This document shows positions 19,359 to 39,169 of a stretch of 41,350 nucleotides of DNA, in pieces. How positions within the stretch are numbered: the stretch's first letter is position 1; each line of letters begins with the position of its first letter. The position numbers and the translations under genes were made by a program. Location of the stretch: positions 512,438 to 553,787 of the forward strand of contig NZ_LMEA01000010.1 in assembly GCF_001425235.1 (NCBI RefSeq), written 5' to 3'. A model generated the notes under the pieces. That model was given only the letters and a program-made list of their open reading frames with translations, had not been told where the DNA came from and did no database searches. This DNA comes from Devosia sp. Root413D1 (GTDB taxonomy: Bacteria > Pseudomonadota > Alphaproteobacteria > Rhizobiales > Devosiaceae).

Positions 19359-19402
19359 AAGACGTTAAACGAACGCTTCGCAAAGACGTTAAGCGAACGC
19401 TT
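19359..19402 (+). promoter_or_regulatory. Tandem 20-bp operator-like direct repeats before the LacI-type gene
   Basis: Two copies of AAGACGTTAARCGAACGCTT (19359-19378 and 19383-19402) differ at one base and are 24 bp apart. The second contains the palindrome AAGCG-AA-CGCTT. They lie between the likely start of transcription and the start codon, the classic place for autorepression by a LacI-family protein. Confidence 0.6.
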
Positions 19403-19422
19403 TAGACGTGTTGGGGGAAGTG

Positions 19423-21430: not shown

Positions 21431-21511
21431 GATCGATTCGGTTCCTTGGCAGGCATCAGCCGGTGGGCTTCAGGAGGGGCGCCCGATAGCCTGCCGGCGT
21501 TAGCGGTCCTA

Positions 21512-22507
21512 TTACTCCGGCAATGCATCGAGCTCGGGCCAGCCATCAGCGGTCCATCGGAGGGGCGAGAACTGGAGTTTCGACACGCCGAGGTCGTCAC
21601 CGTCGTAATAGTGGTAGGCGAGCATCTCGCCCTTTGAGGTGACGATGGCTTCCTGCCCGCCGGGACCGATGAAGCGGCCGGTCTTGCCCAGAAGCAGGGT
21701 GCCGCCGCCCGCGAGCATCGGCTTGCCGTCGCGATCGAGATAGGGACCGGTCACTGCGTCGGCGCGGCCGACGCGCATGTTGTAGGTGCTGTCGAGCTGC
21801 TTGCAGCACTGGTCGAACGACACGAACAGGTAGAACCGCCCCTCGTGCTCGAGAATGCTGGCCGCTTCGATGCCGGCGCCCTGGCGTGAGGCGAGGTCAT
21901 GGGTCGGGGTATCCGGCGTGAGCAGCTTGCCAGAGGCCGGATCGAGCTCCCGCATTTTGATGCCGTCCCAGAACGAGCCGTAGGCAAGGAAGGCGCGGCC
22001 GTCGCTGAGGTCGATGCGCCAGGGGTCGATGGCGTTCCAGTTGTCCTTGCCGTTGGATTTGAGCACCAGGCCCTGATCCTCCCAGCCCTCGCCGGGTTTC
22101 TCGGGGTCGAGCGCGGCATTGGTCATCAGCCCGATGGCGCTGGTGTTGATGCCGAACGAGGACACCGAATAGTAGAGGTTCCAGGTCTCGCCGTGCCTGC
22201 TGACCGATGGCGCCCAGATGTTGAGCGACTGGTAGCCGAGTTCCTTCCGCTCCCATTTGGGGACGCCCTTGCCGATCGATCCGGCGTCGGTCCAGGCAAT
22301 GCCATCCGGCGAGGTCTTGGCGCGAATGGCGCCGCGATAGAGCCCGCCCTCCTGTCCGGTCTGGAAGGCGACGAATTTGCCGTCGACCTCGATCACCGTG
22401 GGGTCATGGATCCTGATGTCGCCGGTCAGCGTCGGCTGCACATCGGCGGCCAGCGCCGGCGACACGAGGCCGCAGAGCAGCGTGGCCACCGCAAGGGATC
22501 GAAACAT
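21512..22507 (-). CDS. Secreted GH43 glycosidase, endo-arabinanase-like
   Basis: Periplasmic or exported inverting glycosidase of 331 aa with a Sec signal peptide (residues 1-20, SPALAAD). Five-bladed propeller signatures give the three catalytic carboxylates: D35 in IHDPTV, D161 in AIDPWR and E214 in GIEAAS. The IWAPSV segment is typical of the family. The motif set is closest to arabinan endo-1,5-alpha-L-arabinanases, though arabinofuranosidase or xylosidase activity is possible. The ATG at 22507 (not the upstream one) follows GGAGGAG and begins the signal peptide. It is divergent from the transglycosylase gene. It could act on plant L-arabinan and feed nearby importers. Confidence 0.83.
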   Translation of the reverse strand: MFRSLAVATLLCGLVSPALAADVQPTLTGDIRIHDPTVIEVDGKFVAFQTGQEGGLYRGAIRAKTSPDGIAWTDAGSIGKGVPKWERKELGYQSLNIWAPSVSRHGETWNLYYSVSSFGINTSAIGLMTNAALDPEKPGEGWEDQGLVLKSNGKDNWNAIDPWRIDLSDGRAFLAYGSFWDGIKMRELDPASGKLLTPDTPTHDLASRQGAGIEAASILEHEGRFYLFVSFDQCCKQLDSTYNMRVGRADAVTGPYLDRDGKPMLAGGGTLLLGKTGRFIGPGGQEAIVTSKGEMLAYHYYDGDDLGVSKLQFSPLRWTADGWPELDALPE

Positions 22508-22568
22508 GGCACTCCTCCGACGCGATGAAAGGGGCGAAGGCATCCCAGAGATTGGCGGCGGGTGTCAA

Positions 22569-24091: not shown

Positions 24092-25231
24092 TCAAATCAC
24101 CTCAAGATAATCCCGCCCCGGCAGCGCTTCGAACGGCGCCGTCGGCAGGGTCTGGTACCAGAACGCCACCGAGGCGATGTCGTCCTGCAGCGGCAGGTAG
24201 CGGCGGGTGTTGCGGTTCTCGGTGCGCCAGCCGAGCGCCTGGATGGTGACCTTCAGGTCGCTTTCGAAGCGGATGGGGTCGCTCAGGTGCCAGCGATACA
24301 TGCCGAAGCGGGTCTGGCTGCGATAGGTGCCGTCGGGACGCAGCACCTGCGGCAGGCCGGCATAGGGGGTGGAGAACTCGCGATAGCGGCTGTCCATGGT
24401 GGCATCGACCACGCCGCCGTCGAAATTATAGGCGCCGCAGAAATAGTCCTCGGTGCCGGTGCCGCAGATGGTGGGGAACGCCTTGTCCCCATCCATGAAG
24501 AACTTGATCTCGCCTTCACCCCACCAGCCGGAATTGTTCACCCCCCAGGCCATGTAGGTGCCGACATAGTGGCCGCGCCCCTTGATGCCATCGAGGATGG
24601 TGTAATCGGTGCCGTAGGGCAGGGGGTTGGTGCGACGGAACTTGGCGTGGAAATAGGCCGCGTCTTCCGGCACCTCGGTCAGGGTGTAGTTGATCTGGTA
24701 GTAGATGATGCCGAAATCGTCGGGGTCGGTATTCTCGATCTCGATGCGCGCGGCCTTGCGGAACGGCATCTCCCAGTAGCAGTTGAAGGCGCGGCCGGGG
24801 TTGACGCAGACGGCGAGCGAGTTGATCTGGGCGAACTGGCCCCAGCCCATGCAGAAGAAATCGCCGAGCGGCGCCTCGACCGAGGGGTTCTCCTGATCGT
24901 CCCACCACATGCGGATGATGAGGCTCCGCCAGCGCAGGTTCGCCGTGGTCAGCCAGATCTGCTGGATGGCGCCCATGCCCTCGATATCGGCAAGGACGCG
25001 GGTTTCGCCCGGTTCGATCCGGATCGAGGGCGATACCTTCCAGCCCTGGCCATTGCCTTCGGGGCCGAGCCCCTTGGCGTGCACGGCGCCGGTGCCTTCG
25101 GTGGCCATGCCGCCCTTACCCTTCTCGCCGGTGAAATTCTCGGGCGAGATCGAGCGGGTCCTGGCCGGCGACAGCCGGTAGAGGTTCGAGAGGTTGACGC
25201 CAAGTCCGTTGAACGGCGTAGTCATTTTCAT
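24092..25231 (-). CDS. DUF2961 / GH172 family glycosidase, copy 2
   Basis: A 379-residue cytoplasmic protein without signal peptide. DUF2961 is CAZy family GH172, whose characterised members are exo-alpha-D-arabinofuranosidases, alpha-D-fructofuranosidases and difructose-dianhydride enzymes. Hallmarks present: WWDDQENPSVEAPLGDFF (109-126), a GRGHYVGTY segment, GWWGEGE with candidate catalytic E239, MDGD, and GTGTEDYF with candidate E261. It overlaps the first copy by the sequence ATGA; an in-frame ATG at 25225 has better Shine-Dalgarno spacing and is the alternative start. The two copies are clearly diverged paralogs, which suggests different linkages or joint action. It is last in the importer B operon. 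Confidence 0.88.
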   Translation of the reverse strand: MKMTTPFNGLGVNLSNLYRLSPARTRSISPENFTGEKGKGGMATEGTGAVHAKGLGPEGNGQGWKVSPSIRIEPGETRVLADIEGMGAIQQIWLTTANLRWRSLIIRMWWDDQENPSVEAPLGDFFCMGWGQFAQINSLAVCVNPGRAFNCYWEMPFRKAARIEIENTDPDDFGIIYYQINYTLTEVPEDAAYFHAKFRRTNPLPYGTDYTILDGIKGRGHYVGTYMAWGVNNSGWWGEGEIKFFMDGDKAFPTICGTGTEDYFCGAYNFDGGVVDATMDSRYREFSTPYAGLPQVLRPDGTYRSQTRFGMYRWHLSDPIRFESDLKVTIQALGWRTENRNTRRYLPLQDDIASVAFWYQTLPTAPFEALPGRDYLEVI

Positions 25232-26397
25232 TGTCCCTGGAATGGATAGCGGAAATGCGGGATGCGCTCGGCAACCGGCGGTAGCGGATCGAACGGCTTG
25301 TGCGGCTCGGCCTGATACCAGAACGCCACCGACGAGATGTCGTCCGACCGGCCATTGGCGTGGCCGTGCTCGATGCTGACCTTGATGCGCTCCTTGAAGA
25401 TCAAGGGGTCCTCGATGTGCCAGCGATAGAGCGTCACCGGCTCGGTCCAGTTCGGGCCGCCGGCGGCGATGATGCCGTGATAGGGCGCCGAGTACTCCTC
25501 GGTGGGGCACCAGGCGGTGTTGAAATAATCCTCGGTGCCGGTGCCATGCAGGGTCGGCGGCCACTGGTCGTTGGCGCCGGGGGCGCTTTCGGGACGCGGC
25601 TCGATCAGCGCGGCTTTCGGGCCGATGCGCGGATCGGGCTTGCGCACCGTGTCGGGCACCGAGAGGCCGGGGGCGCCGTCGATCCAGATCATGTCGTCGC
25701 CTTCGCCGTACCAATCCCAGGACCGCGACAGGCGCTGCGACTGCACCGAGAACAGCACGCCGACATAGTGGCCGTGGCCTTCGGCATCGAGGATCACGTA
25801 GTTGCGCTTGCCGTCGACATTCTCGCCGCCGAACAGATGCTGCTCGTTGGTCTTATTGGCCTCGCTGACTCCCGCCGGCCGATCCTGCCGATACTGGGCG
25901 TGGAAGCGCCCCATGCCGTCCTCGAGCCGATCATGCAGCTCGAGGTCGACATAGTAGTAGAACAGCAGGTCGACCTCGGACTCGTTGGTGATGGTCAACC
26001 GCATCGAGCTGCCGAACGGCATCGGGAAGTAGCTGTTGAAAGCCTTGCCGTCTTGCGGGCTCGCCTGCACCGGCAGCGAGGCGAAGTTCCGGGTTTTGGC
26101 ATGGCCCATGCCGAAGAAATCGCCGATCGGGCTCTCGACGCTCGGTTCGGTCTCGCCGTCCCAATAGGCGCGCAGCACGATCTTTCTGAGGTAATGGTCG
26201 GCCGACGAGGCTAGGGTGGCCCAGATATGGGTGATGATGCCGGCGCCCTGGTGCTCGGCGATCACGACGGTCTTCCCCGGTTCGATATGCAGCCGGTCGT
26301 CGTTGCCGCCGGTGCGGTCATAGCTCGAAAAGCGCCGGCTCTGCGCCTCGCGCAGTTTTGCTAGTCCCCGTAGCGGCGAGAGGCCCGCATTGGTCAT
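25228..26397 (-). CDS. DUF2961 / GH172 family glycosidase, copy 1
   Basis: A 389-residue cytoplasmic GH172 protein. It shares AYWDGETEPSVESPIGDFF, the GHGHYVGVLF segment, WYGEGDDMIWIDG (candidate E232) and GTGTEDYF (candidate E289). Between these two glutamates it has an insert of about 35 residues (VRKPDPRIGPKAAL and following) that the second copy lacks, so the active-site rim probably differs. It starts at ATG 26397 after AAGGAG. It follows the permease genes of importer B. GH172 proteins form oligomers in characterised cases; a mixed assembly of the two copies is possible but not shown. Confidence 0.88.
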   Translation of the reverse strand: MTNAGLSPLRGLAKLREAQSRRFSSYDRTGGNDDRLHIEPGKTVVIAEHQGAGIITHIWATLASSADHYLRKIVLRAYWDGETEPSVESPIGDFFGMGHAKTRNFASLPVQASPQDGKAFNSYFPMPFGSSMRLTITNESEVDLLFYYYVDLELHDRLEDGMGRFHAQYRQDRPAGVSEANKTNEQHLFGGENVDGKRNYVILDAEGHGHYVGVLFSVQSQRLSRSWDWYGEGDDMIWIDGAPGLSVPDTVRKPDPRIGPKAALIEPRPESAPGANDQWPPTLHGTGTEDYFNTAWCPTEEYSAPYHGIIAAGGPNWTEPVTLYRWHIEDPLIFKERIKVSIEHGHANGRSDDISSVAFWYQAEPHKPFDPLPPVAERIPHFRYPFQGQ

Positions 26398-26421
26398 AGA
26401 AATCTCCTTGGGGGCTCGGGT

Positions 26422-26449
26422 CTATTTCAGGCCGCTGGTTTTTTGCATG
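26422..26449 (-). pseudogene. Vestige of a permease C-terminus
   Basis: The 21 bases at 26422-26442 repeat those at 26456-26476, the very end of the MalG-like gene, with two differences. Read on the minus strand both encode K-T-S-G-L-K-stop, and both differences are synonymous. An ATG-CAA precedes the vestige. It seems to be the tail of a second permease copy left by duplication and deletion, 34 bp from the living one. Confidence 0.5.
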
Positions 26450-26455
26450 GTCGGC

Positions 26456-27292
26456 CTACTTCAGGCCGCTGGTCTTGATGGAGTCCATGATCTGCTTCTG
26501 GAAGATCACGAACAGCACCAGCATCGGCACCGCGACGATGGTCGAGGCGGCCATGGTGTAGTTCCAGCTGGCGGCGTACTGGCTCTTGAAGTTGGCGATG
26601 GCCACCTGCACGACCCACAGGTTCTGGTCAGAGGCGACGGTGAGCGGCCAGAGGAACGAGTTCCAGTTGGCGAGGAAGAACAGGATCGCCAGCGCCGCGA
26701 TGATCGGCCGGCTCAACGGCAGGATCACGCTGGTGTAGATGCGCCAGTAGCCGGCGCCGTCGATCACCGCGGCTTCTTCCAGCTCCTTGGGCAGCGACAG
26801 GTAGTATTGGCGGAGCAGGAAAATGCCGAAGGCGTTGAAGATCGCCGGGACGATCAGCCCGGCATAGGAGTTCAGCATGCCCATCGAGCGCACCAGGATG
26901 AACAGTGGCACGATGATCACCGGCAGCGACACGAGGAAAGTCGAGAACATGGCGAGGAACACTGCCTCGCGACCCGGGAACTTCAGCCGCGCCAAGGCGT
27001 AACCGGCCATGGTGTGGAAGAACAAAGCCACCACCGTCACCACGGCGGAGATGATGAAGGTGTTGATCAGGTAGCGCCAGAACGGCACCTCGGTCAGCAC
27101 GTAGATGAAGTTGTCGAGCACGGGTTTCGATGGAATCAGGTTCGACTTGAACACCTCGGTCGGGCCCTTGAAGGCGATCGACAGCATGTAGAGCAGCGGG
27201 AAGATCGCCATCACGGCGAGCACTATTGTCACCAGCATCCAGACCAGTCGGACGACATTGGCCTGCGAACGGGAAAGGGTTGCGCTACTCAT
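26456..27292 (-). CDS. CUT1-family sugar ABC importer permease (MalG-like), importer B
   Basis: Inner-membrane subunit of 278 aa with six helices; the first is at about residues 13-35. The EAA loop is EEAAVIDGAGYWRIY with ILPLSRP. Its start overlaps the end of the MalF-like gene by eight bases, so the two are coupled. The C-terminus (KTSGLK) is duplicated just downstream as a short vestige. No ATPase gene is present in this operon. Confidence 0.88.
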   Translation of the reverse strand: MSSATLSRSQANVVRLVWMLVTIVLAVMAIFPLLYMLSIAFKGPTEVFKSNLIPSKPVLDNFIYVLTEVPFWRYLINTFIISAVVTVVALFFHTMAGYALARLKFPGREAVFLAMFSTFLVSLPVIIVPLFILVRSMGMLNSYAGLIVPAIFNAFGIFLLRQYYLSLPKELEEAAVIDGAGYWRIYTSVILPLSRPIIAALAILFFLANWNSFLWPLTVASDQNLWVVQVAIANFKSQYAASWNYTMAASTIVAVPMLVLFVIFQKQIMDSIKTSGLK

Positions 27293-28223
27293 AATCGAAC
27301 CGTCCGCCGCGGGTGAGGAAGAAGAAGAACACCGTGACCACCATCAGCAGCACCACGAGGAGCGTCGCCAGCGCCGCGGCATAGCCGAAGGCGGAGTACT
27401 GGAAAGCCTGCTGGTAGATGTAGCTGATCAGCAGCGCCGTCGAATTGGCCGGTCCGCCCTTGGTCATCACGTAGATCAGGTCGAAGGCCTGCGCGCCGGT
27501 GATGGCGGCGACGGCCGAGACCAGCAGTACGAAGAAGCTGGTGGGGCGCAGCAAGGGCAGGGTGATGAACCAGAAGCTCTGCGTGGCGCTCGCGCCATCG
27601 ATGCGCGCCGCCTCGTAATACTCCTTGGGGATGTCCTGCAGGCCGCCCAAAAAGATCAGCATGTAAAAGCCCATCAGGAACCACACCGCGGCGAGCGTCA
27701 CGGTGAACAGCGCCAGGTTCGGGTCGCCGAGGAAAGAGATGCCGCCGAGCCCGATCGAGGCGGCGAAGCGGGTGAGGACGCCGAGCTTGTCGACCACCAT
27801 CAGCTGCCAGACCAAAGCCACGACGACGAGGCTGACCATCTGCGGCGCAAAGAACATCGAGCGCATCACGGTGTTGAACTTGCTGGTGCGCTGCACCAGC
27901 AGCGCCAGGCCCAGCCCGCTGACATAGAGCAGGGGCACCAGCATCAGGGTGAACTGCCCGGTGACGCGCAGCGACGACCAGAACAGCGGGTCACCCCACA
28001 TCTTCAAGTAGTTGGCGAGCCCGACGAACTTGAAGCCGCCGAAGCCGTCGACCTCGAACACCGAGATGCCGAGCGCCAGGAGCATCGGCAGACCGATGAA
28101 CAGCATCAGGCCGATGGCGTCGGGCGCGACGAACAGCACGCCGGCAATGGCCTCGCGCTGCCTCGTGGTGAGCCGGATGGCAGCGGGCTTGTCGCCCGCC
28201 GCCGTAGTTGTGATCTCAGTCAC
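27285..28223 (-). CDS. CUT1-family sugar ABC importer permease (MalF-like), importer B
   Basis: Inner-membrane subunit of 312 aa. A cytoplasmic tail (TTRQREAIAG) leads into the first helix at about residues 27-52. The EAA loop is YEAARIDGASATQSF with ITLPLLRP. The start is GTG at 28223 with GGAG eight bases upstream. It is separated from the binding-protein gene by a repeat-filled gap of 173 bp. Confidence 0.87.
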   Translation of the reverse strand: MTEITTTAAGDKPAAIRLTTRQREAIAGVLFVAPDAIGLMLFIGLPMLLALGISVFEVDGFGGFKFVGLANYLKMWGDPLFWSSLRVTGQFTLMLVPLLYVSGLGLALLVQRTSKFNTVMRSMFFAPQMVSLVVVALVWQLMVVDKLGVLTRFAASIGLGGISFLGDPNLALFTVTLAAVWFLMGFYMLIFLGGLQDIPKEYYEAARIDGASATQSFWFITLPLLRPTSFFVLLVSAVAAITGAQAFDLIYVMTKGGPANSTALLISYIYQQAFQYSAFGYAAALATLLVVLLMVVTVFFFFLTRGGRFDYE

Positions 28224-28255
28224 TGGTCACTCCGAACACAGGATCATGTGGCCGT

Positions 28256-28374
28256 CGCCTCCCTCCCCCCGCGGCGCTACCGCGTCCGCTAGGAGGGGAG
28301 GGATTGAGGGAGGCGGTGGTTCAGTGATCACCGATGGACCCCCACCCCCCACCCCTCCCCTCAAGGGGGAGGGG
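28256..28374. repeat. Palindromic repeat between binding-protein and permease genes of importer B
   Basis: Two units. Unit one has outer arms CGCCTCCCTC (28256-28265) and GAGGGAGGCG (28306-28315). Unit two is a perfect 9-bp hairpin, CCCCTCCCC (28352-28360) with GGGGAGGGG (28366-28374). The base composition and the TCCCCTCAAGGGGG-type core place it in the same family as the repeats at 23942 and 37973, though the copy looks rearranged. It occupies the position where the other importer operons carry a simple hairpin. Confidence 0.65.
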
Positions 28375-28396
28375 AGCGAAGCCGTCGTGGCTTCCC

Positions 28397-29737
28397 TTAC
28401 AGGATCGGTGCGCCGCTATACGACGCGAGGAAGGCGTCGAGCTGCTGGCTGGCGGCGGTGGCCGTTGCCTGCGGGTCGGCGCCGCCGAGCTGGGTCTGCT
28501 GGATGGCGTCGGAGATGATCTTGTAGACCTCGGGCGGCACCCGCGGCTCGGCCCGGGTTCCCGGATGGATCTGGGTGCCGAAGATCCCCATATTGCCCTT
28601 GTTGAAGGCATCGCCACCGGCAGCCAGCGCCGAGTTGCGCGGCGGCATGTCGGATTTCGCCACAGTGCACCAATCGACCACGCGCTGCACCGAATCCGGC
28701 GCCATCGAAGCCAAAGCCCAGGCGATGAACTTCGCCGCGGCTTCCGGGTTCTTGCCCTTGGAATTGGCGACGAAGGCCCAGCCGCCACCGACGGTGACGT
28801 ACTTGCCGCCAGTCGGCACCGGCAGCTTGAAGATGCCGTAGGGGACGTCGGGGGCGTTGTTGTCCATCGCCGAGATGCCCCAGATGCCGACATTCTGCAT
28901 GGCGCAGTAGCCGGAGCCGAGGTTGGCGACGATATCGCCGCCGCCACCGCCGAGCATCTGACGCGGTGCGGCGCCGGAATTGACCGCATCCTGCCAGAGC
29001 TTCAGCGCCTGAACGGTTGCCGGCGAGTCGAAGGCGGACTTGCCTTCAGCCGACTGGAATTCGCCGCCGCCCTGCCACATGAAGGGGTACCAGGTGAAGT
29101 TCTGGTAGTAGCCCGGGTTGGTCTCGAACAGCACGCCATAGCGCTCGGCCGTGGTCAGCTTCTTGCCCACTTCGAGCAACTGGTCCCAGGTGGTGGGCAC
29201 ATCGTTCTCGTTGAGCCCGGCCTCCTCGAAGGCCTTGACCGAGTAGTAGAAGGCCATCGGCTCGACTTCCATCGGCACGCCGAAGATCTTGCCGTCGACC
29301 ATGCGGTTGGCGATGACGCTTTCGGGGAAATCGGCGCGGGCCGCTTCCTCGATCGCCGGGGTCAGGTCCTGCAGCACGCCGCCATTGTAGTAGCGCAGGA
29401 AATCGCCGGGCGAGATGATGAAGATATCCGGGCCCTGGCCCGACGCGAACGAGGTCGCGAGCTTGGTGCCGCCGATATATTCGGAGCCCACCACATATTC
29501 GAGCGCGACCTGCTCGGATTGGGTGGCGTTCCAATCGGCCACCATCTTCACGAACCAGTCGACCTGCGGCTTCACATCGCCGCCGGGGGCATAGAACTGC
29601 CAGAAGCTGAGCGTGTTGTCCTGAGCGAACGCCTTGCCGGCGAACGGCAGGGCAAGGCCGGCAGCGCCCAGTGCGGCGCCGCCCTTGAGGATGGACCGGC
29701 GGGACCATCCCGACGGCATGTTGGACGTAAGAGTCAT
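28397..29737 (-). CDS. Sugar ABC importer substrate-binding protein with Tat signal, importer B
   Basis: Periplasmic receptor of 446 aa in the SBP_bac_1 family. The N-terminus carries a twin-arginine motif SRRSILK (residues 12-18) and a mild hydrophobic stretch ending GKAFAQD, so export is probably by Tat, in folded form. The mature part begins LSFWQFYAPGG, and its C-terminal half has the family's long helices (EAAAKFIAWAL). ATG 29737 follows GGGAGGAG. Two downstream GH172 enzymes suggest a furanoside oligosaccharide as ligand (inference). Confidence 0.87.
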   Translation of the reverse strand: MTLTSNMPSGWSRRSILKGGAALGAAGLALPFAGKAFAQDNTLSFWQFYAPGGDVKPQVDWFVKMVADWNATQSEQVALEYVVGSEYIGGTKLATSFASGQGPDIFIISPGDFLRYYNGGVLQDLTPAIEEAARADFPESVIANRMVDGKIFGVPMEVEPMAFYYSVKAFEEAGLNENDVPTTWDQLLEVGKKLTTAERYGVLFETNPGYYQNFTWYPFMWQGGGEFQSAEGKSAFDSPATVQALKLWQDAVNSGAAPRQMLGGGGGDIVANLGSGYCAMQNVGIWGISAMDNNAPDVPYGIFKLPVPTGGKYVTVGGGWAFVANSKGKNPEAAAKFIAWALASMAPDSVQRVVDWCTVAKSDMPPRNSALAAGGDAFNKGNMGIFGTQIHPGTRAEPRVPPEVYKIISDAIQQTQLGGADPQATATAASQQLDAFLASYSGAPIL

Positions 29738-29823
29738 CTCACTCCTCCCTGGAGCTTTGGTGTTGTCGTCCGGGACGCGGCCACCTCCCCCGAAACGGCC
29801 GCGCTTGGTTATTCTTCGTCCGG

Positions 29824-30828
29824 CTAGGCCGACTCGAAGATGCGCAGCGCACAGGGGATGACCTCGGTGCGCGGCGGGCCGTCGAACTTGCCGTTGAGGC
29901 GGTCGAGCAGCATTTCAACGGCGCGCCGAGCCAGCGCACCTGGATTCTCGCCGGCTCGGGTGAGGTTGGGCCTCACATACTCGAGCTGCGGCAAGTCGCC
30001 GAAAATGGCGACGGCAATATCGTCGGGGACGCGGACGCCCTGATCGTGGAACTCGGCCAGCGCACCCATCGCCATCAGGTAGTTGCCGATGAACACGGCG
30101 CTCGGCTTGTCCTCGCCGCTCAGTTGCGCGATCCACTGCGCCGCCTCGCGACCGGAGGGCGGCAGGTAGGTGCCGGTGTAGCGCTGGGCCTTCTTGACCT
30201 TGACCTTGTGGTCCCTGAGGGCCTGTTCGAAACCATCGGCGCGGGCCATGGCGGACTCGAAATTCTCAGGCCCGGTGATCTGCACCACAGTCTTGTGCCC
30301 GCGTTCGGCGAAGTGCTTGCCGACCATGTAACCGCCGCCGTAATCGTCGACTTTGACGCTGTCGACGGCGTGGCTGGCGAGCTGGCCGATGAACACCGTC
30401 GGGGTGTCGAGCTTCAAGAGCTCCTCGTTGATGCCGTGCAGGGCGAAATCGCCGACCAGCAGGCCATCGACGCGCTTCTTGTTGAGCTGGCGCAGGTAAT
30501 CGCGGCCATGCGTCTGCCAGTTTCCGCCCGGCACGTCGGTATTGTAGATCAGCGCGTCGAGCCCGGCCTCCTCGAGCGCCGCCTGCGCCGCCTTCACCAT
30601 CTCGGTGTAGAACGGGTTGCCGATATCGGGGATCAGCATGGCGATCAGGTTGGTGCGCCCCGTCCGCAAACTCTTGGCCTGCGGATTGGGCGAATAGCCG
30701 AGCTCATCGATCGCCGCCTGCACCTTTTCGCGCAGCGGCTTCGACACCCGATTGGCGTGGTTGATCACATGCGAGACCGTGGTCCGCGACACGCCTGCCC
30801 GTTCGGCAACCTTTGAGATCGTGCTCAT
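29824..30828 (-). CDS. LacI-family transcriptional regulator of importers B and C
   Basis: A 334-residue repressor: helix-turn-helix STISKVAERAGVSRTTVSHV, hinge VQAAIDELGYSPN, then an effector domain (LIAMLIPDIGNPFYTEM, KRVDGLLVGD, a GHKTVVQITGP segment, AVAIFGDLPQLEY). The ATG at 30828 is used; the open frame extends 47 codons further but only through the operator-bearing spacer. It sits between operons B (same strand, downstream of it) and C (divergent), with large palindromes in the spacer at 30863-30900, so it probably controls both and itself. Effector probably a sugar released by the GH172/GH116 enzymes. Confidence 0.88.
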   Translation of the reverse strand: MSTISKVAERAGVSRTTVSHVINHANRVSKPLREKVQAAIDELGYSPNPQAKSLRTGRTNLIAMLIPDIGNPFYTEMVKAAQAALEEAGLDALIYNTDVPGGNWQTHGRDYLRQLNKKRVDGLLVGDFALHGINEELLKLDTPTVFIGQLASHAVDSVKVDDYGGGYMVGKHFAERGHKTVVQITGPENFESAMARADGFEQALRDHKVKVKKAQRYTGTYLPPSGREAAQWIAQLSGEDKPSAVFIGNYLMAMGALAEFHDQGVRVPDDIAVAIFGDLPQLEYVRPNLTRAGENPGALARRAVEMLLDRLNGKFDGPPRTEVIPCALRIFESA

Positions 30829-30862
30829 GGCGGCAACGGCTAGCACCAAACGAAAGACGCAT

Positions 30863-30900
30863 GCAAATGGATTTGTGAATGCATTTGCAAATCCATTCAC
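30863..30900. promoter_or_regulatory. Overlapping operator-like palindromes between lacI-type gene and operon C
   Basis: Bases 30875-30900 form a 26-bp palindrome with a single mismatched pair (arms GTGAATG.ATTTG and CAAAT.CATTCAC). A second, overlapping one spans 30863-30888 with three mismatched pairs. They share half-sites such as GCAAATGGATTTG, offset by 12 bp. AT-rich in a GC-rich spacer and 35-60 bases from the regulator's start codon, they are strong candidates for binding of the LacI-type protein. Confidence 0.65.
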
Positions 30901-31117
30901 AGCTGTTACGTTCGCTCTCGCCAGAAGACGGGGACAACCCCGCGATGGGAGAAATACCTGAACGATCACAATGGTTTAATCAGCGCACTCTGAAGTCGGA
31001 CGCCAGTTTTCGGCGGTTTTCCGGGTGCGGATGGCTTTTCAACAGCGGACGCGGTGAAAAACCCGCGATCCAGCGCCGGCGAAGCTTTGTCGAAACGCCG
31101 GACAGAGGAGGGACGAG

Positions 31118-32371
31118 ATGAAGAAATTACTGGCGGCTCTGCTGCTCACGGCCGGGCTGGTATCGCCTGCGCTGGCCCAGTCCGATGAAGCGGGCAAGCT
31201 GCGGCTGATGACCTTTGGCGGCGAAGCGCAGCTCAAATCGACGCAGGACGCGGTGACCCGCTTCAACGCCAAATACCCCAATGTCGAGGTCGAAATCGGC
31301 GTCGATGCAGTGGGTGGCGGCTGGGGCGATTTCGTGTCTCGCGTCTTGCAGCAATACAATGCCGGCGAGCAGTATGATGTCTACCACACGGCGGTGGAGA
31401 CGCTGCAGAGCTTTGCGGCGCGCGACCTGTTCATTCCGCTCGACGACTATATCGCGACCGGCGACTTCTCCGACTTCGACGCCAAGCTGTTCGACCTGAC
31501 CAAGTACAAGGGGAAGACCTACTTCATCCCCTCGACCTGGAACAACATCATGACGAACTACAACCGGGCGCTGTTCGCTGAGGCCGGTATCGAAGCGCCC
31601 AGCAAGACCTGGACGTGGGACGAGTTCGCCGCCATCGCCGAAAAGCTGACCAAGCGCGACGCCAACGGCAATGTCACCCAGTTCGGCTACGAGGTGCCGG
31701 CCTTCTTCTTCGGGCTGATGCCGTGGTTCCTCTCCAACGGCACCTCGCCGGTGACCGCGGATTGGTCGGCCTCCAACATGAAGGACCCCAAGGTCGCCGA
31801 GACGCTGCAGTTCCTCTACGACCTGATCCACGTCAAGAAGGTGTCGCCGGTGCCGGGGCAGGAGGGCGTCGAGAACCAGTTCTTCGCCGGCCAGATCGCC
31901 ATGATCTCGCGGGGTCACTGGATCGTGCAGAACGCCATCTCGTCAAAGCTCGACATGGATATCGCTGTGCAGCCGGGCAAGGTGAGCAACGACACCGTCA
32001 TCGGCTTCGGCGCCTATGGCATTTCGTCCAAGGCGCAGAACCCGGAACTGGCCAAGGCGCTGGTCACGGAACTCCTGAGCTACGAGACGCAGGTGGCTGA
32101 AGGCGATCTGGGCGGCGCCGTGCCGGGCCGCAAGTCGGCGGCCGAGACCGAGAATTTCCTGAAGTTCCCGCCGTCGGCGCCGCTCTACTACGAGACGCTG
32201 CCGACCACCCATGCGGTGCCGTCGCCCGCCAATTTCCAGGAAGTCGACCAGATTTTCATGCGGTATTTCAACGCCATCATGACCGACGAAATGACCATTC
32301 CTGATGCCGTCGCCAAGGCGGACCAGGAACTGACCCGCTCGTTCGAGCGCATCAAGCGCGTCACCCAGTAG
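31118..32371 (+). CDS. Sugar ABC importer substrate-binding protein, importer C
   Basis: Periplasmic receptor of 417 aa. The Sec signal peptide is residues 1-20 (MKKLLAALLL, SPALAQ). The mature protein has the SBP_bac_1 pattern: LMTFGGEAQL, TRFNAKYPNVEVEIG, GKTYFIPSTWN, and an AMISRGHWIV segment. GGAGG seven bases upstream fixes the start at 31118. It opens operon C (binding protein, two permeases, GH116, ATPase, GH183) and is divergent from the LacI-type gene. Confidence 0.89.
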   Translation: MKKLLAALLLTAGLVSPALAQSDEAGKLRLMTFGGEAQLKSTQDAVTRFNAKYPNVEVEIGVDAVGGGWGDFVSRVLQQYNAGEQYDVYHTAVETLQSFAARDLFIPLDDYIATGDFSDFDAKLFDLTKYKGKTYFIPSTWNNIMTNYNRALFAEAGIEAPSKTWTWDEFAAIAEKLTKRDANGNVTQFGYEVPAFFFGLMPWFLSNGTSPVTADWSASNMKDPKVAETLQFLYDLIHVKKVSPVPGQEGVENQFFAGQIAMISRGHWIVQNAISSKLDMDIAVQPGKVSNDTVIGFGAYGISSKAQNPELAKALVTELLSYETQVAEGDLGGAVPGRKSAAETENFLKFPPSAPLYYETLPTTHAVPSPANFQEVDQIFMRYFNAIMTDEMTIPDAVAKADQELTRSFERIKRVTQ

Positions 32372-32384
32372 TCCTCCCCCGGAC

Positions 32385-32418
32385 TGCCCGCGCCGAACCC
32401 TCGGGTCCGGCGCGGGCA
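32385..32418 (+). other. Strong hairpin between binding protein and permeases of importer C
   Basis: Arms of 16 bases with one mismatch (TGCCCGCGCCG and following; CGGCGCGGGCA) close on a 2-base centre, so the real loop is somewhat larger. It begins 14 bases after the binding-protein stop. No T tract follows; it most likely stabilises the upstream mRNA or attenuates. Confidence 0.65.
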
Positions 32419-32454
32419 CTTTCACCTGAGCGCTCCAGTTTTCTCCGGCCCGAG

Positions 32455-33357
32455 ATGGTTATGGCGAAGCGACGACTATCCGATCTCCGCAAGGCGCAGA
32501 TGCAGGCGGGCTACATCTTCGTGTTGCCCTCGATCCTGCTCTACGCGGCGTTCGTGCTGGCGCCGGTGGCCATCACCATCATCCTCAGCTTCACCTATTA
32601 CGACATCAGCTTCGGGGCCGACTGGGTGGGGTTCGAGAATTATGTGCGCTTCCTCACCGAGCCGCGCTCGCTCGAGATCTTCTGGAACACGCTGCGCTTC
32701 GCTTTCCTCGCGGTGAGCTTCAACGTCGCGGTCGGGCTGATCCTGGCGCTGGCGCTGAACCGGGCGATGCCGAAATTCCTGCTCTACTTCTTCCGCCTCG
32801 CCTTCTTTTTGCCGGTGATCATCTCGGCGGCGTTCGTCGCGGTGGTGTGGAGCTATTTCTACAGCGTCGATTTCGGCGTCATAAACTACTATCTCGGCCA
32901 GATCGGCCTGCCGCAGGTGCCGTGGCTGTCATCGTCGAAATTCGCGATGACCTCGATCGTCATCATGGATGTGTGGAAGAACACCGGTTTCTTCATGATC
33001 ATCCTGATCGCGGCGCTGCAGGGCGTGCCGAGGCCAATCATGGATGCCGCCTCGATGGATGGCGCCTCCGCCTGGCGCCGCTTCGGCCGCATCACGCTGC
33101 CGTTCATCTCGCCGGTGCTGTTCTTCTGCATCGTCTTCGCCTCGATCGGCGCGCTGCAGGTGTTCGAGTCGATCATGATCCTGACCGGCGGCGGCCCCGG
33201 GGATTCCACCCGCTCGCTGTCGATCTACCTGGTCGACGAGGCGTTCGGCAGCTTCGAGCTCGGCTACGCCGCGGCGGTCAGCGTCATCATGATGATCCTC
33301 GTCCTCATCATCACCATCATCCAGATCATCGGCTCGCGCCGCTGGGTGCGGGAGTAG
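32455..33357 (+). CDS. CUT1-family sugar ABC importer permease (MalF-like), importer C
   Basis: Inner-membrane subunit of 300 aa, six helices, the first at about residues 19-41 after a basic tail (AKRRLSDLRKAQ). The EAA loop is MDAASMDGASAWRRF with ITLPFIS. ATG 32455 is used, with another in-frame ATG two codons on; neither has a clear ribosome-binding site, so the hairpin or coupling may matter for its translation. The next permease gene starts three bases after its stop. Confidence 0.87.
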   Translation: MVMAKRRLSDLRKAQMQAGYIFVLPSILLYAAFVLAPVAITIILSFTYYDISFGADWVGFENYVRFLTEPRSLEIFWNTLRFAFLAVSFNVAVGLILALALNRAMPKFLLYFFRLAFFLPVIISAAFVAVVWSYFYSVDFGVINYYLGQIGLPQVPWLSSSKFAMTSIVIMDVWKNTGFFMIILIAALQGVPRPIMDAASMDGASAWRRFGRITLPFISPVLFFCIVFASIGALQVFESIMILTGGGPGDSTRSLSIYLVDEAFGSFELGYAAAVSVIMMILVLIITIIQIIGSRRWVRE

Positions 33358-33360
33358 GCC

Positions 33361-34215
33361 ATGCAAACCAGATCCATGCAGACGCGCCAAGCCAAGAAGT
33401 GGGTCGATCGCGCCATCATCGCGGTGCTGCTGCTGATGGGCATCCTGATGCTGATGCCGTTCTTCTGGCTGTTCTCGATGTCGTTCCGGCCGGCGCCGGA
33501 AGCCTACAAGATGCCGCCGAGCTTCTTTCCGCCCAGCTTTGATCTGAGCAACTACCAGACGGTGCTCGAGTCCTCGGTGCCGTTCCTCAAGATCTACTGG
33601 AACAGCCTTTACGTTGCGGTGCTGGTGACCATCGGCCAGCTCATCACCTGCACGCTCGCCGCCTTCGCTTATGCGCGGCTGAGGTTCCCCGGTCGCGACA
33701 GCCTGTTCTTCGTCATGCTGATCGGGCTGATGTTCCCGGCGCAGGTGACGATCCTGCCGATCTATCTCGGCTACGCCAAGCTCGGGCTGCTCAACAACCC
33801 GCTCGGCCTCGTGCTGATGGGCCTGACCTCGAGCTTCGGGGTGTTCATGCTGCGCCAGTTCCTGCGCTCGCAACCCAAGGAGCTCGAGGAAGCGGCGCTG
33901 ATGGATGGCGCCGGCTACTTCAAGATCTTCTGGCGTATCTCGCTGCCGCAGCTGATGCCGGCGCTCGGCGCCCTCGCCATCATCACCTTCACCGGCGCCT
34001 GGAACTCCTATTTCCAGCCGCGGGCCCTGATCGAGTCGCAGGCGGCGATGACCCTGCCGATCGCGATGGACCTGCTCCGCGGCTACATGAGCCAGGGAAA
34101 CCTGTCGGTGGTCATGGCCGCGATGAGCATGGCCATCCTCCCCGTCGTCCTCCTCTTCCTCGTCGCCCAGAAGATGGTGATCGAGGGCGTCACGTTCTCA
34201 GGCATCCGGGCCTGA
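33361..34215 (+). CDS. CUT1-family sugar ABC importer permease (MalG-like), importer C
   Basis: Inner-membrane subunit of 284 aa with the usual six helices (first about residues 18-40). The EAA loop is EEAALMDGAGYFKIF with ISLPQLMP. ATG 33361 follows GGGAG that lies in the end of the previous gene. GH116 begins three bases after its stop, so transport and hydrolysis are tightly co-expressed. Confidence 0.88.
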   Translation: MQTRSMQTRQAKKWVDRAIIAVLLLMGILMLMPFFWLFSMSFRPAPEAYKMPPSFFPPSFDLSNYQTVLESSVPFLKIYWNSLYVAVLVTIGQLITCTLAAFAYARLRFPGRDSLFFVMLIGLMFPAQVTILPIYLGYAKLGLLNNPLGLVLMGLTSSFGVFMLRQFLRSQPKELEEAALMDGAGYFKIFWRISLPQLMPALGALAIITFTGAWNSYFQPRALIESQAAMTLPIAMDLLRGYMSQGNLSVVMAAMSMAILPVVLLFLVAQKMVIEGVTFSGIRA

Positions 34216-34218
34216 CCC

Positions 34219-36786
34219 ATGGATTTTCAGATGACCAAGACCGATCCGCGTTTCATCTACGAAGGCGACCGTACCCGCCACATCGCTTTCCCGCTCGGCG
34301 GCATCGGCGCCGGCGGGCTGGCGCTGTCGGGCAGCGGGCGGCTGGTCGACTGGTCGATCCGCAACCGGCCGGGGCTGCAGAGTTTCAACGGCTATAGCCA
34401 CTTCGCCATCAAGGCCGAGGCAGGGGGCGAACTGCTCGATGCCCGGGTGCTCAACGGCCCCTATGAGGGACTGCCCACCGGCTCGCCGACGACGCGGAAA
34501 TTCTTCGACGGTTTCGGTTGGGGCGCCAACCGCAACACGCTGGCGGGCGTGCCGCATTTCGAGGCGACGACCTTTACCGGCACTTTCCCGGTGGCTGAGG
34601 TGGCGTTCCATGATGCGAGCTTTCCGGGGCAGGTGAAGCTCACCGCCTGGAGCCCGTTCATCCCGACCAACGAGCGCGATTCCTCGCTGCCGGCGGCGAT
34701 GTTCGAGATCGAGGTGACCAATACCGGCCCGGTGCCGGTCGACTACACCATCGGCGGGACGCTGGGGAACCATGGCTGCCAGAACGGCCGGCACAGCTAT
34801 GCCGAGGCAGGCGGGGTGAAATCACTGCTGCTGACTGCCGCCGATGAGCTGCCGGACTGGCAGACGGGCGACGTCTCGATCGCCACCGACGCCGGGGATG
34901 TCGACCACCTCGACTACCATTTCCGCGGCCAGTGGTTCGACGATCTCAACCTGTTCTGGCGCGAGTTCGCGAGGGCAGGCCGGCTGCCCGAGCGGCACTA
35001 CGACAAGCCGCGGCTCAACCGCAACATGTTCGACCAGCCCGAACACGGCACGCTCGCCGCCCGGATCAGCGTGGCGCCGGGCGAGACGAAGACCGTGCGC
35101 TTCGCCATCGCCTGGCACTTTCCGGTCGGCCAGGTCTATTGGCGGCCGGGGCAGGTGAATGGCGAGACCGGAACCTGGCGCAACTATTATGCCAGCCAGT
35201 GGGCGAACTCCGGCGCGGTGCTCGCCGAAGCGTTCGCGCGCTGGGACGAGCTACGCGCCCCGACCTTCGCCTTCCGCGATACGCTGTTCGGCACCAGCCT
35301 GCCGGTCGACATCATCGATGCGGTGCAGGGCACCATGAGCATCCTCCGCACCGCCACGGTAATGCGGCTCGAAAACGGTGAGCTCTGGGCCTGGGAGGGC
35401 CAGTTCACCAATGAGGGCAGTTGCGAAGGCTCGTGCACCCACGTCTGGAACTACCAGCAGACGCTACCCTACCTGTTTCCCGGGCTCGAGCGCACGCTGC
35501 GCGAGACCGACTACACCTATAACCAGCTGCCCAATGGCGGGCTGACCTTCCGGCAGATCATCCCGCTCGGCTCGGCCTTTTTCCCGCTCAACCCCTGCGC
35601 CGACGGCCAGTTCGGCTCGATCATCAAGACCTTTCGCGATTGGAAGATCTCCGGCGATACGGAGTGGCTGAAGCGCTACTGGCCCAAGGTGAAGGCGGCG
35701 CTCGAATATGCCTGGTCGGCCGACAATCCGGACCAGTGGGATCCGGAACGCACCGGGATCCTGTGGGGGCGACAGCACCATACGCTCGACATGGAACTGT
35801 TCGGCCCGAACTCGTGGCTCTCGACCATGTATGTCGCGGCGCTGAAGGCCGGCGCCGAGATGGGGCGCGCTGCAGGCGATGCGGCATTTGCTGCCGAGCT
35901 CGAGCGGATGGGGCAGGCGGGGGCCGACTATCTCAACGCCGAGCTGTTCAACGGCGACTACTTCATCCAGAAGACCGACCTGGGCGACAAGGCGCTGATC
36001 GAAAAGTTCGATCACGCCAGCGGCAAGGTCGGGGTGATCGCCGACGGTTTCATGGAGACCTACTGGTCGGACGAGTACGGCCAGATGAAGTACCAGTTCA
36101 ACGACGGCTGCGCGACCGACCAGATCCTCGGGCAGTGGCATGCCGACCTTGCCGGGCTCGGCAGCTTCCTCGACCCCGACAAGGTAAAGACGGCGCTCGC
36201 CTCGGCCTATCGCCACAACTATCGCGCTGACCTCAAGGGCCACTTCAACCCCTGCCGGGTCTATGCCTATGAGGACGAAGGCGGCGTGCTGATCGCCACC
36301 TGGCCCGACGGCACCACCAAGCCGGCGGTGCCGGCGCCGTACTCCGAGGAGGTGTGGACGGGGCTCGAATATATGCTCGCTTCACACCTGATCTTCCGCG
36401 GATTGACCGACGAGGGGCTCGCGATCGTCCGCACGGCGCGGGCCCGGCATGACGGGTATCGGCGTAACCCATGGAACGAGATCGAGTGTGGCAGCTATTA
36501 CGCCCGCTCGATGTCGAGCTTCGCGCTGGTCAATGCCTGGTCGGGCCTCAGCTACGATCTCACCAAGGGCGAGATCGGCTTTGCGCCCAAGGACCAGGGC
36601 GACGGCAGCTGGTTCTGGTCGGTAGGCGAGGGCTGGGGCGTCGTCAGCCGCAGCGGCAACCGCGTCCGCCTCGAGGTCCGCTATGGCAGCCTCGATCTCG
36701 GTGCGCTCTCCTTTGCCGGCACCAGTGCCCGCATCGACCGCAAGCTCGGCGCCGGCGACGCCGCAGACCTGACAATCGGAGGCTGA
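34219..36786 (+). CDS. Glycoside hydrolase family 116 enzyme, candidate exo-beta-D-arabinofuranosidase
   Basis: An 855-residue cytoplasmic enzyme (no signal peptide) with an N-terminal beta-sandwich (GGIGAGGLALSGSGRLVDW at 27-45) and a C-terminal (alpha/alpha)6 barrel. The two catalytic residues of GH116 can be placed: nucleophile E403 in EGSCTHVWNY and acid/base D634 in CATDQILGQW. GH116 contains beta-glucosidases, the human bile-acid beta-glucosidase GBA2, and a bacterial exo-beta-D-arabinofuranosidase. Together with GH172 and GH183 in this locus, the last activity is my preferred reading, but beta-glucosidase or xylosidase cannot be excluded by sequence alone. ATG 34219 is used; 34231 is also possible. 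It lies between the permease and ATPase genes of importer C. Confidence 0.87.
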   Translation: MDFQMTKTDPRFIYEGDRTRHIAFPLGGIGAGGLALSGSGRLVDWSIRNRPGLQSFNGYSHFAIKAEAGGELLDARVLNGPYEGLPTGSPTTRKFFDGFGWGANRNTLAGVPHFEATTFTGTFPVAEVAFHDASFPGQVKLTAWSPFIPTNERDSSLPAAMFEIEVTNTGPVPVDYTIGGTLGNHGCQNGRHSYAEAGGVKSLLLTAADELPDWQTGDVSIATDAGDVDHLDYHFRGQWFDDLNLFWREFARAGRLPERHYDKPRLNRNMFDQPEHGTLAARISVAPGETKTVRFAIAWHFPVGQVYWRPGQVNGETGTWRNYYASQWANSGAVLAEAFARWDELRAPTFAFRDTLFGTSLPVDIIDAVQGTMSILRTATVMRLENGELWAWEGQFTNEGSCEGSCTHVWNYQQTLPYLFPGLERTLRETDYTYNQLPNGGLTFRQIIPLGSAFFPLNPCADGQFGSIIKTFRDWKISGDTEWLKRYWPKVKAALEYAWSADNPDQWDPERTGILWGRQHHTLDMELFGPNSWLSTMYVAALKAGAEMGRAAGDAAFAAELERMGQAGADYLNAELFNGDYFIQKTDLGDKALIEKFDHASGKVGVIADGFMETYWSDEYGQMKYQFNDGCATDQILGQWHADLAGLGSFLDPDKVKTALASAYRHNYRADLKGHFNPCRVYAYEDEGGVLIATWPDGTTKPAVPAPYSEEVWTGLEYMLASHLIFRGLTDEGLAIVRTARARHDGYRRNPWNEIECGSYYARSMSSFALVNAWSGLSYDLTKGEIGFAPKDQGDGSWFWSVGEGWGVVSRSGNRVRLEVRYGSLDLGALSFAGTSARIDRKLGAGDAADLTIGG

Positions 36787-36788
36787 GC

Positions 36789-37907
<1,119 letters not shown>

Positions 37908-37972
37908 TGCTTACCTCGAAAGGCCCCCTCACCCGGCTTCGTGGCACCGCTGCCGACAGACTGGTGCGCACA

Positions 37973-38108
37973 GAGTATCCCCACCCCTGTCCCCTCCCCG
38001 CAAGGGGGACGACAAGAGGTCGCCCCGAGGGGAGGGAGACGCTCTCACCAGCGCCAGTGTTTTGGTCTCCTCCCCCCTTGCGGGGGAGGGACAGGGTGGG
38101 GGGTATTC
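37973..38108 (-). repeat. Palindromic repeat within the 5' end of the GH183 gene
   Basis: Left arm from about 37976 (ATCCCCACCCCTGTCCCCTC and on) and right arm to 38106 are complementary at most positions. The core TGTTTTGGTCTCC is the reverse complement of the GGAGACCAAAACA in the copy at 23942-24077, so this is the same element in opposite orientation and of similar length. It has no stop codon in the GH183 frame and reads as PHPCPLPARG...PPPLRGRDRVGG. It separates the overlapping ATG at 37907 from the signal-peptide codons. Confidence 0.8.
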
Positions 38109-39169
38109 TTCCCGCACTGAGCTTGGCACTACTGCTCGCAGCCACCCCAGCCCTAGCCGCCGATTACAGCGTCACCTCCGAAAAGGTGAAGGCCCTGACC
38201 GGGCCCAATGCGCCGGCGCCGATGAAGGGCCCGGATATCTGCGGCACCGATCTCGGCACCATGGCCGAGATCGACGGCAAGATCGTCCTCGCCTTTGGCG
38301 ATACCTTCGGCTGGAACGAGAATGCCTGCATCCGCTTCGGGCCGAACTGGCGCTCCAATGTCGTCGCCTTCACCTCCGATCTCGATGCTTCGGATGGCAT
38401 CGTCATCGATGACTGGGTGACAGATACGGACGGCAAGGCGGTGGAGATCGCCAAGGGGGCGCACCAGGATGCGTTCAAGGGGGAGCAGACCAAGATCCCG
38501 ACCGCCATGGTGACGGTCGGCGACACGCTGTACCTCCACTACATGTCGGTGAATGGCTTCTCCTCGATGGGCGGCGTCTGGCTCTGCAACTGGTCGCGCT
38601 TCATCTCGTCCACCGATGGCGGCAAGACCTGGAGCCCGGGGCCGGACGAATTCGGCAGCTTCAAATCGAGCTTCAACATGCTGGCGCTTTCGGCCCAGCC
38701 GGGCGCCGGCAACGAGGACGGCAAGTATGTCTATGCCGTGGGCACCCCATGTGGCCGCTTTGCCGGCGCGCGGGTGGCGCGCGTCGCCGCCGACAAGCTG
38801 CTCGACACCAAGGCCTGGGAGTATTTCGACGGCAGCGGCTGGGTCAGCGACCGCGCCCAGGCGGCCGAAGTGATCAGGCCGGGCGCCGGCGAGGGCTCGC
38901 TGGTGTGGAACCCAGGGATAAGACTCTGGATGTACACGACGCTCAACGAGCTCTCGGAGGCGATCGAGCTGCGCTTCGCCGAGCGGCCGGAAGGGCCGTG
39001 GTCGGCGCCGGAGGTGCTGGCGCGCGGCTCCGACTATGCCCAGGCCTACGGCGCCTACATGACGCCGTCGTGGATTTCCGAGGATGGGCTCAGCTTCTGG
39101 TTCGTGATGAGCCAGTTCGGGCCGTACAACACCTACGTGATGAAGGCGACGCTAACGCCGGATCAGTAA
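38096..39169 (+). CDS. Secreted DUF4185 / GH183 family protein, candidate endo-D-arabinanase
   Basis: DUF4185 is now CAZy family GH183, whose characterised members are endo-D-arabinanases acting on mycobacterial arabinan. The mature part (DGKIVLAFGDTFGW, NWRSNVVAFTSD, a VGDTLYLHYMSV segment, WSRFISSTDGGKTW, PWSAPEVL) fits its propeller fold. A signal peptide core (LPALSLALLLAATPALA) ends near residue 21. The start is uncertain: the frame stays open back to an ATG at 37907 that overlaps the ATPase stop, but about 60 of those residues come from a palindromic repeat. I chose GTG 38096, which follows GGAGGGACAGG within the repeat and puts the signal peptide at the N-terminus, though without basic residues. 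It would act in the periplasm or outside and supply oligosaccharides to importers B and C. Confidence 0.8.
   Translation: MGGILPALSLALLLAATPALAADYSVTSEKVKALTGPNAPAPMKGPDICGTDLGTMAEIDGKIVLAFGDTFGWNENACIRFGPNWRSNVVAFTSDLDASDGIVIDDWVTDTDGKAVEIAKGAHQDAFKGEQTKIPTAMVTVGDTLYLHYMSVNGFSSMGGVWLCNWSRFISSTDGGKTWSPGPDEFGSFKSSFNMLALSAQPGAGNEDGKYVYAVGTPCGRFAGARVARVAADKLLDTKAWEYFDGSGWVSDRAQAAEVIRPGAGEGSLVWNPGIRLWMYTTLNELSEAIELRFAERPEGPWSAPEVLARGSDYAQAYGAYMTPSWISEDGLSFWFVMSQFGPYNTYVMKATLTPDQ

Follow-up and report, generated by a model that had tools for sequence, protein, structure and literature searches.

A putative D-arabinan scavenging locus of Devosia with two importers and a common LacI operator

D-arabinan (D-arabinofuranan) has been treated mainly as a mycobacterial wall polymer, and the question raised here is whether an alphaproteobacterium carries a dedicated locus for its use. 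The locus in question lies in Devosia sp. Root413D1, within a stretch of 41,350 nucleotides (C10:512438-553787, hereafter the window) of a 5.85-Mb genome of 14 contigs; the right end of the window is the contig end. The original prediction, made from this DNA alone, had read positions 24092-39169 as an alphaproteobacterial cluster of two DUF2961 proteins (glycoside hydrolase family GH172), a GH116 and a DUF4185 protein (GH183), with two importers, a LacI regulator and no unrelated gene in between, which together would degrade D-arabinan. Judged from sequence comparisons, it is quite probably a D-arabinan scavenging locus of Devosia.

Pfam matches with E-values from 1e-15 to 1e-100 bear out the listed gene set: two DUF2961 genes, one GH116, one DUF4185, two sets of a solute-binding protein with two permeases, one MalK-type ATPase and one LacI were all found, and no unrelated gene was seen between them in 24092-39169 (Table 1). 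Leftward from LacI (alpha arm) the order is SBPb, two permeases, GH172b and GH172a, the last two genes overlapping by 4 bases; the true extent of GH172a is 25231-24092 (379 amino acids), a 540-amino-acid open reading frame being over-extended. Rightward (beta arm) come SBPa, two permeases, GH116, the MalK-type ATPase and GH183. The alphaproteobacterial host was confirmed as well, the closest named relatives being Devosia (D. insulae GH116, 97%). The locus is syntenic in six more genomes of the genus (L020-L024 and L026) and in G042 (L025), which the taxonomy used for all family and genus counts puts in another genus. Ratios of nonsynonymous to synonymous substitution (dN/dS) of 0.035-0.32 in 20 of 21 comparisons, with the row of LacI against L020 excluded, correspond to purifying selection. 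On the Pfam E-values, the synteny and the dN/dS, the locus is not a chance assembly.

The enzymes carry the assignment of the substrate. A sequence comparison with the PDB brought up just two relatives of GH183, both of them EndoMA1 entries (the better one 8hhv, E 1e-40). GH183 keeps D33, D51, E243, R198 and Y293 of EndoMA1 (nucleophile, acid/base, Glu, Arg and Tyr; roles from PMC10509167, which like the other papers cited here by PMC number is represented by excerpts), the row of G088 being excluded from this comparison, and its columns D115, D132, E329 and R284 are invariant in an alignment of eight Devosia sequences. As far as the excerpts of PMC10115798 go, the DUF4185 proteins that were soluble had arabinogalactan or lipoarabinomannan as substrate. 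No relative was found in the viral contigs scanned with GH183.

For the GH172 proteins, grouping with fructofuranosidases had been named as the outcome that would speak against D-arabinan; in an unrooted tree of 26 sequences both copies stand apart from the alpha-fructofuranosidase clade. GH172a falls on the ExoMA1 side of a split with support 0.999, together with Paenibacillus and Parabacteroides proteins. It scores 439 bits at 59.6% identity against ExoMA1 (8ic8; 151 bits for the next) and keeps the Asn at ExoMA1 specificity position 253, a residue said to exclude fructofuranose (PMC10509167). GH172b joins DgGH172c and BACUNI_00161 with support 0.964, outside the fructofuranosidase clade, and has Cys at the specificity site as in DgGH172c. 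The alphaFFase1 clade has Gly at this site; its member from Rhizobium phaseoli, with a GH32-type gene one gene away, provides a useful control. The EndoMA1 residues in GH183, the ExoMA1 clade of GH172a and the DgGH172c grouping of GH172b thus support the proposed D-arabinan enzyme set at the level of sequence.

It is highly improbable that the locus serves plant L-arabinan or fructan. GH172 does include an alpha-fructofuranosidase (PMC10509167), and a GH43 protein most like endo-alpha-1,5-L-arabinanase is encoded just outside the locus at 21512-22543, being adjacent in G091 also; however, the GH43 gene is set off by a lytic transglycosylase gene on the opposite strand and stands outside the two divergent arms, the locus contains no GH32, and in the excerpts of PMC10509167 and PMC10115798 no GH183 activity on L-arabinan is reported. 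The fructan reading was set aside on the position of GH172a and GH172b in the tree.

Both arms appear to answer to one regulator. The most likely start of LacI is ATG 30828, not 30969, and the palindrome at 30876-30899 is therefore upstream of both arms. When nine genomes were searched for it (up to 3 mismatches, reversed sequence as a control), seven genomes of the genus had one site apiece and G117 had two; there was none in G042, and the reversed control gave zero. Because each of these seven genomes holds a single site, LacI looks local and dedicated to the locus, which agrees with the regulatory role foreseen for it.

Outside the genus DUF4185 is rare in the class. Of 136 family genomes 10 have it: 8 among the 19 genomes of the genus, counting that of the window, then G042 and, with a mere fragment, G117. 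In evenly drawn samples it turned up in 6 of 385 genomes at class level and in 4 of 397 at order level, in each case with 3 over the cut-off (own included). The eighth carrier in the genus, G086, is represented by a 3.2-kb contig showing just GH183 and the next gene (L027). Among the compared loci the second importer is missing from L024 and L025, and GH172b is confined to the window and L025, the latter having it instead of GH172a.

The third predicted activity, the exo-beta-D-arabinofuranosidase GH116, is less well supported than the roles of GH172 and GH183. In its favour, GH116 scores 422 bits against ExoMA2 (8ic6) and 78 bits against beta-glucosidases, and E393, H408, R445 and D524 match the ExoMA2 site, that is the nucleophile, the acid/base and the substrate residues His446 and Arg483 (ExoMA2 numbering assigned by manual comparison with the printed chain, which is offset by 4). 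In the beta-D-Araf (D-arabinofuranose) site this His and Arg replace the Asp and His of beta-glucosidase (PMC10509167). The original prediction for this enzyme is nevertheless weakened: the catalytic Glu and Asp and the substrate His and Arg agree with it, but ExoMA2 is distant and the GH116 operon also occurs without the other enzymes.

These two facts belong to a set of observations that weigh against the D-arabinan reading. ExoMA2, the sole characterised member of the GH116 tree (83 sequences, midpoint-rooted; 8 of 91 sequences left out at 700 amino acids or fewer), is only 37% identical to GH116 and lies outside a clade of 81, so the argument from the best PDB match is weak for this enzyme; many GH116s that have no GH172 or GH183 nearby are at least as close to ExoMA2 as the one in the window. 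Among the GH116 loci, taken as the best 80 of 574 relatives with some contigs short, 16 have the order SBPa-permeases-GH116-MalK (or the part that the contig holds) with SBPa of at least 54% identity and no GH172 or GH183 in the flank available. Three of these loci (L063, L065 and L066), from Devosia metagenome-assembled genomes (MAGs), consist of the beta module without GH172. All this would suit a GH116 arm serving another beta-glycoside, such as a gluco- or xylo-oligosaccharide, with only GH172 and GH183 acting on D-Araf and the promoter region shared by an accident of assembly, as would the LacI of the stand-alone loci, which where found is just 26-31% identical. We hold this to be unlikely, in view of three points: all 83 GH116 sequences of the tree retain the beta-D-Araf site residues His and Arg (the loci were found through one of two motifs, of which one holds the His and neither the Arg); ExoMA2 is inactive on p-nitrophenyl-beta-D-glucose (PMC10509167); and each of the seven complete close relatives (L020-L026), like Devosia epidermidihirudinis (L053), has retained a GH172 alongside the GH116 arm.

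The remaining adverse points concern the other components. In GH183 three EndoMA1 subsite residues are changed (W138F, P141G and L292A). In D. epidermidihirudinis (L053) no GH183 accompanies the locus within the available flank, which shows that the arms can occur in the absence of an endo-enzyme. On the ExoMA1 side of the GH172 tree, the Parabacteroides distasonis protein is encoded beside GH28-related and GH140 genes (L136:9125-13110), and a plasmid of the root-nodule isolate Devosia sp. A8/3-2 carries a GH172a (81%) near GH127 genes, its LacI and ABC genes being fragmented in the annotation (L134:13577-24812); because of these contexts the group may not be confined to D-arabinan. There is no outer-membrane receptor within the locus, and no D-arabinose isomerase or kinase either, and the FucI-type isomerase (PF02952) has no match in the genome. 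The genome encodes five IlvD/EDD proteins, of which one is Edd and another resembles pentonate dehydratases, scoring below the cut-off of the L-arabinonate model.

With D-arabinan retained as the probable substrate, the scheme that we infer for enzyme activities, transport, induction and direction of assembly is as follows. Exported GH183 would cut D-arabinan to oligosaccharides, in the periplasm or outside. Two CUT1 importers would take the D-arabino-oligosaccharides in, energised by one ATPase: a single ATPase gene (start 36789) accompanies the two permease sets, and the MalK/UgpC-type ATPase is probably common to both. In the cytoplasm GH172a and GH172b would strip alpha-linked D-Araf and GH116 would remove beta-linked D-Araf caps, yielding D-arabinose. 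LacI bound at the palindrome between LacI and SBPa would silence both divergent arms, to be released by an oligosaccharide or by D-arabinose. The targeting order of the original prediction holds in part: by hydropathy, GH183 has a hydrophobic N-terminal signal and the exo-enzymes do not, but cleavage outside the cell is not established, as the signal indicates crossing of the inner membrane alone. Two secretins are encoded in the genome, but their presence is no guide to the passage of GH183 through the outer membrane.

Both arms have stand-alone relatives. Among plasmid records GH172b has 131 matches (best about 82%), of which 51 come from Sinorhizobium, and in the three Sinorhizobium loci examined the order is LacI (60-63%), SBPb (74-76%), permeases (69-79%), GH172b and an ATPase. 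For the pSymB-type operon of Sinorhizobium meliloti (LacI-SBP-permeases-GH172-UgpC) identities to Devosia are 60% for LacI, 76% for SBPb, 69-79% for the permeases and 80% for GH172b; unlike the alpha arm, it has kept its own ATPase, and neither GH116 nor GH183 was found in the 19-kb stretch, nor was the exact operator core ATTTGCAAAT. The label SMb20231 for this region follows from position and from the excerpts of PMC12542648. A literature search by gene numbers found no functional report on the operon. Glycosyltransferase genes lie near it (L165:4710-11290).

The beta arm corresponds to the GH116-CUT1 operon of Rhizobium, Kaistia and Mesorhizobium, with identical gene order (SBPa 54-61%, GH116 60-65%, MalK 63-70%), which differs in its distant LacI and in having no GH172 or GH183 in the flank available. 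The hosts of the 16 stand-alone operons are Rhizobium, Kaistia, Mesorhizobium, Pleomorphomonas, the three Devosia MAGs, other Hyphomicrobiales and MAGs labelled Burkholderiales or Verrucomicrobiota. On four contigs with the latter labels (L057, L059, L061 and L089) the GH116 operon is 60-65% identical, which points to horizontal transfer or misbinning. Among the best 80 of 574, GH172 accompanies GH116 only in L052, L053 and L055 and GH183 only in L052 and L055, all of them Devosia; in L054 and L058, likewise Devosia, the contig is truncated. The simplest account is that a Sinorhizobium-type alpha module with its LacI was joined to a Rhizobium/Kaistia-type beta module, minus one ATPase, and that GH183 was added. 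A similar stand-alone module of the alpha type occurs in G117, where GH172a (84%) follows a separate LacI and the same operator. Elsewhere in G117 (L030:13242-14551) LacI and the operator adjoin a 53-residue GH183 fragment, apparently a remnant after loss of the beta arm.

Actinobacterial debris, proposed as the food, is not established by these data, since Devosia submarina makes D-arabinan and DprE1-like genes are not uncommon within the class. What D. submarina makes is a linear polymer with alternating alpha-1,2- and alpha-1,5-linked D-Araf (PMC8707391), and DprE1/E2 homologues have been linked to Araf in Gram-negative glycans (PMC11127046). Matches to DprE1 were found in 16 of 136 family genomes (300 bits or more), none of them a GH183 carrier, and in at least 43 of 385 class genomes (314 bits or more; a lower bound with at most four candidates scored per genome). 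DprE2 adjoins DprE1 in 16 of 16 loci examined (L144-L159, eight from the family of the window), with a UbiA match near in 12 of 16. The same enzymes might thus feed on D-arabinan capsules or D-Araf glycans of Gram-negative neighbours, other Devosia included, a possibility to which we give less than even weight. The window genome (best DprE1 match partial, 49.5 bits) and the other GH183 carriers lack a DprE1 match of that strength, which speaks against turnover of their own wall; for the window genome own-wall turnover was set aside on that 49.5-bit partial match. On the other side, every DprE1 match is below the curated cut-off of 500 bits, and an overlap of zero, where about 1 would be expected for 16 carriers of DprE1 and 9 of GH183 among 136 genomes, is close to the chance level. 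Moreover, the D. submarina polymer is all-alpha and would leave the exo-beta-enzyme idle, whereas mycobacterial arabinan has beta caps; a real exo-beta activity of GH116 would for that reason favour a beta-capped, that is actinobacterial, arabinan. On a plasmid of Tateyamaria omphalii (L132:3676-13017) a DUF4185 gene lies amid genes for DprE1, DprE2, UbiA, GtrA and glycosyltransferases, so that this alphaproteobacterium appears to have a cluster for a D-Araf glycan; the DprE1 and DprE2 there are below their curated cut-offs and the UbiA-type protein is above its own.

The closest known system is the D-arabinan polysaccharide utilisation locus (PUL) of Microbacterium arabinogalactanolyticum (EndoMA1/2, ExoMA1 and ExoMA2; PMC10509167), which likewise combines GH183, GH172, GH116 and an SBP_bac_8 sugar ABC importer in a compact cluster and shows the same export pattern, GH183 with a signal and GH172 and GH116 without. 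As far as the excerpts describe that PUL, Devosia differs in having one GH183 instead of four, with no room for the C-terminal domain of EndoMA1 that resembles a carbohydrate-binding module, and in its two importers with one ATPase gene, two GH172 proteins, LacI operator, lack of an isomerase or kinase in the locus, and Gram-negative host. In its predicted working the Devosia locus resembles the Microbacterium cluster; new are the other phylum, the two importers, the one operator and the apparent modular origin.

PULs of Bacteroidota use a type of uptake other than CUT1 ABC importers. The claim that such a locus would be new in a Gram-negative was too wide, as PUL42 of the Gram-negative Dysgonomonas gadei also unites GH172, GH183 and GH116 (DgGH172a-c, DgGH4185a/b and a putative GH116; PMC10115798, PMC10509167) and has in DgGH172c a protein like GH172b; Devosia differs from it by its CUT1 ABC importers. 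Nor was a FucI-type isomerase found in the window genome, whereas one was the most abundant carbohydrate enzyme of D. gadei on D-arabinan (PMC10115798). No report of D-arabinan use by alphaproteobacteria was found in the open-access literature searched, figures and supplements lying outside the search, and a passage search in the text of the two key papers (PMC10115798 and PMC10509167) gave no "proteobacteri".

Table 1 Features of the candidate D-arabinan locus (positions in the window)
Feature	Position	Strand	Basis and remarks
GH172a, predicted exo-alpha-D-arabinofuranosidase (ExoMA1 type)	24092..25231	-	Pfam DUF2961; 379 aa; no export signal seen
GH172b, predicted second exo-alpha-furanosidase (DgGH172c/BACUNI_00161 type)	25228..26397	-	Pfam DUF2961, tree; no export signal seen
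CUT1 permease, alpha arm (MSDb1)	26456..27292	-	Pfam BPD_transp_1
CUT1 permease, alpha arm (MSDb2)	27285..28223	-	Pfam BPD_transp_1
Solute-binding protein, alpha arm (SBPb)	28397..29737	-	Pfam SBP_bac_1; twin-arginine-like N-terminus SRRSILKG
LacI-family regulator	29824..30828	-	Pfam LacI, Peripla_BP_3
Near-perfect operator palindrome TGAATGCATTTGCAAATCCATTCA, 11/12 pairs	30876..30899		Between LacI and SBPa, conserved in alignment
Solute-binding protein, beta arm (SBPa)	31118..32371	+	Pfam SBP_bac_8; Sec-like N-terminus
CUT1 permease, beta arm (MSDa1)	32455..33357	+	Pfam
CUT1 permease, beta arm (MSDa2)	33361..34215	+	Pfam
GH116, predicted exo-beta-D-arabinofuranosidase	34219..36786	+	Pfam; ExoMA2 likeness; no export signal seen
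MalK/UgpC-type ATPase	36789..37907	+	Pfam; NCBIfam UgpC over cut-off
GH183, predicted endo-D-arabinanase with export signal	37907..39169	+	Pfam DUF4185 259.6 bits (cut-off 39.5); EndoMA1
REP-like inverted repeat, in frame at MalK/GH183 junction	37964..38117		45-nt arms, 80% complementary

Near the start of GH183 lies an inverted repeat resembling repetitive extragenic palindromic (REP) elements. Translation from ATG 37907 reads through this palindromic element; an equally good start is GTG 38096, which the end of the repeat supplies together with a Shine-Dalgarno-like GGGGGAGG. In four of the eight copies judged (in L020 as a different element) such a repeat separates the stop codon of MalK from the signal peptide of GH183; the other four lack it, and in L027 its presence could not be judged. 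When up to 3 mismatches are allowed, CCCCTCCCCGCAAGGGG matches the window at four places (23971, 28352, 37991 and 38074; 0.32 expected), and translated pieces similar to this element also occur between permease genes of L020 and L022. A second glycan island at 11821-22543 comprises a CUT1 importer, MalK, GH2, LacI, an acyltransferase-like protein and the GH43 protein mentioned above.

A dedicated, regulated uptake locus in the Devosia group would extend D-arabinan use to the alphaproteobacteria and would supply the analysis of D-arabinan with new enzymes and binding proteins. It would also suggest functions for the stand-alone GH172 and GH116 operons of rhizobia. A Gram-negative D-arabinan cycle may be imagined, doubtful as it is at present, in which some Devosiaceae and other alphaproteobacteria are coated by means of DprE1/DprE2-type donors and non-making sister Devosia eat the coat with fused rhizobial arms under one LacI operator; if this were true, the Sinorhizobium GH172 and Rhizobium GH116 operons would be unrecognised D-Araf uptake systems in plant symbionts. 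The frequency of DprE1-like genes among alphaproteobacterial genomes raises the question of whether D-Araf glycans are common in Gram-negatives, and both the eaters and the sources of D-arabinan may be broader than the known cases.

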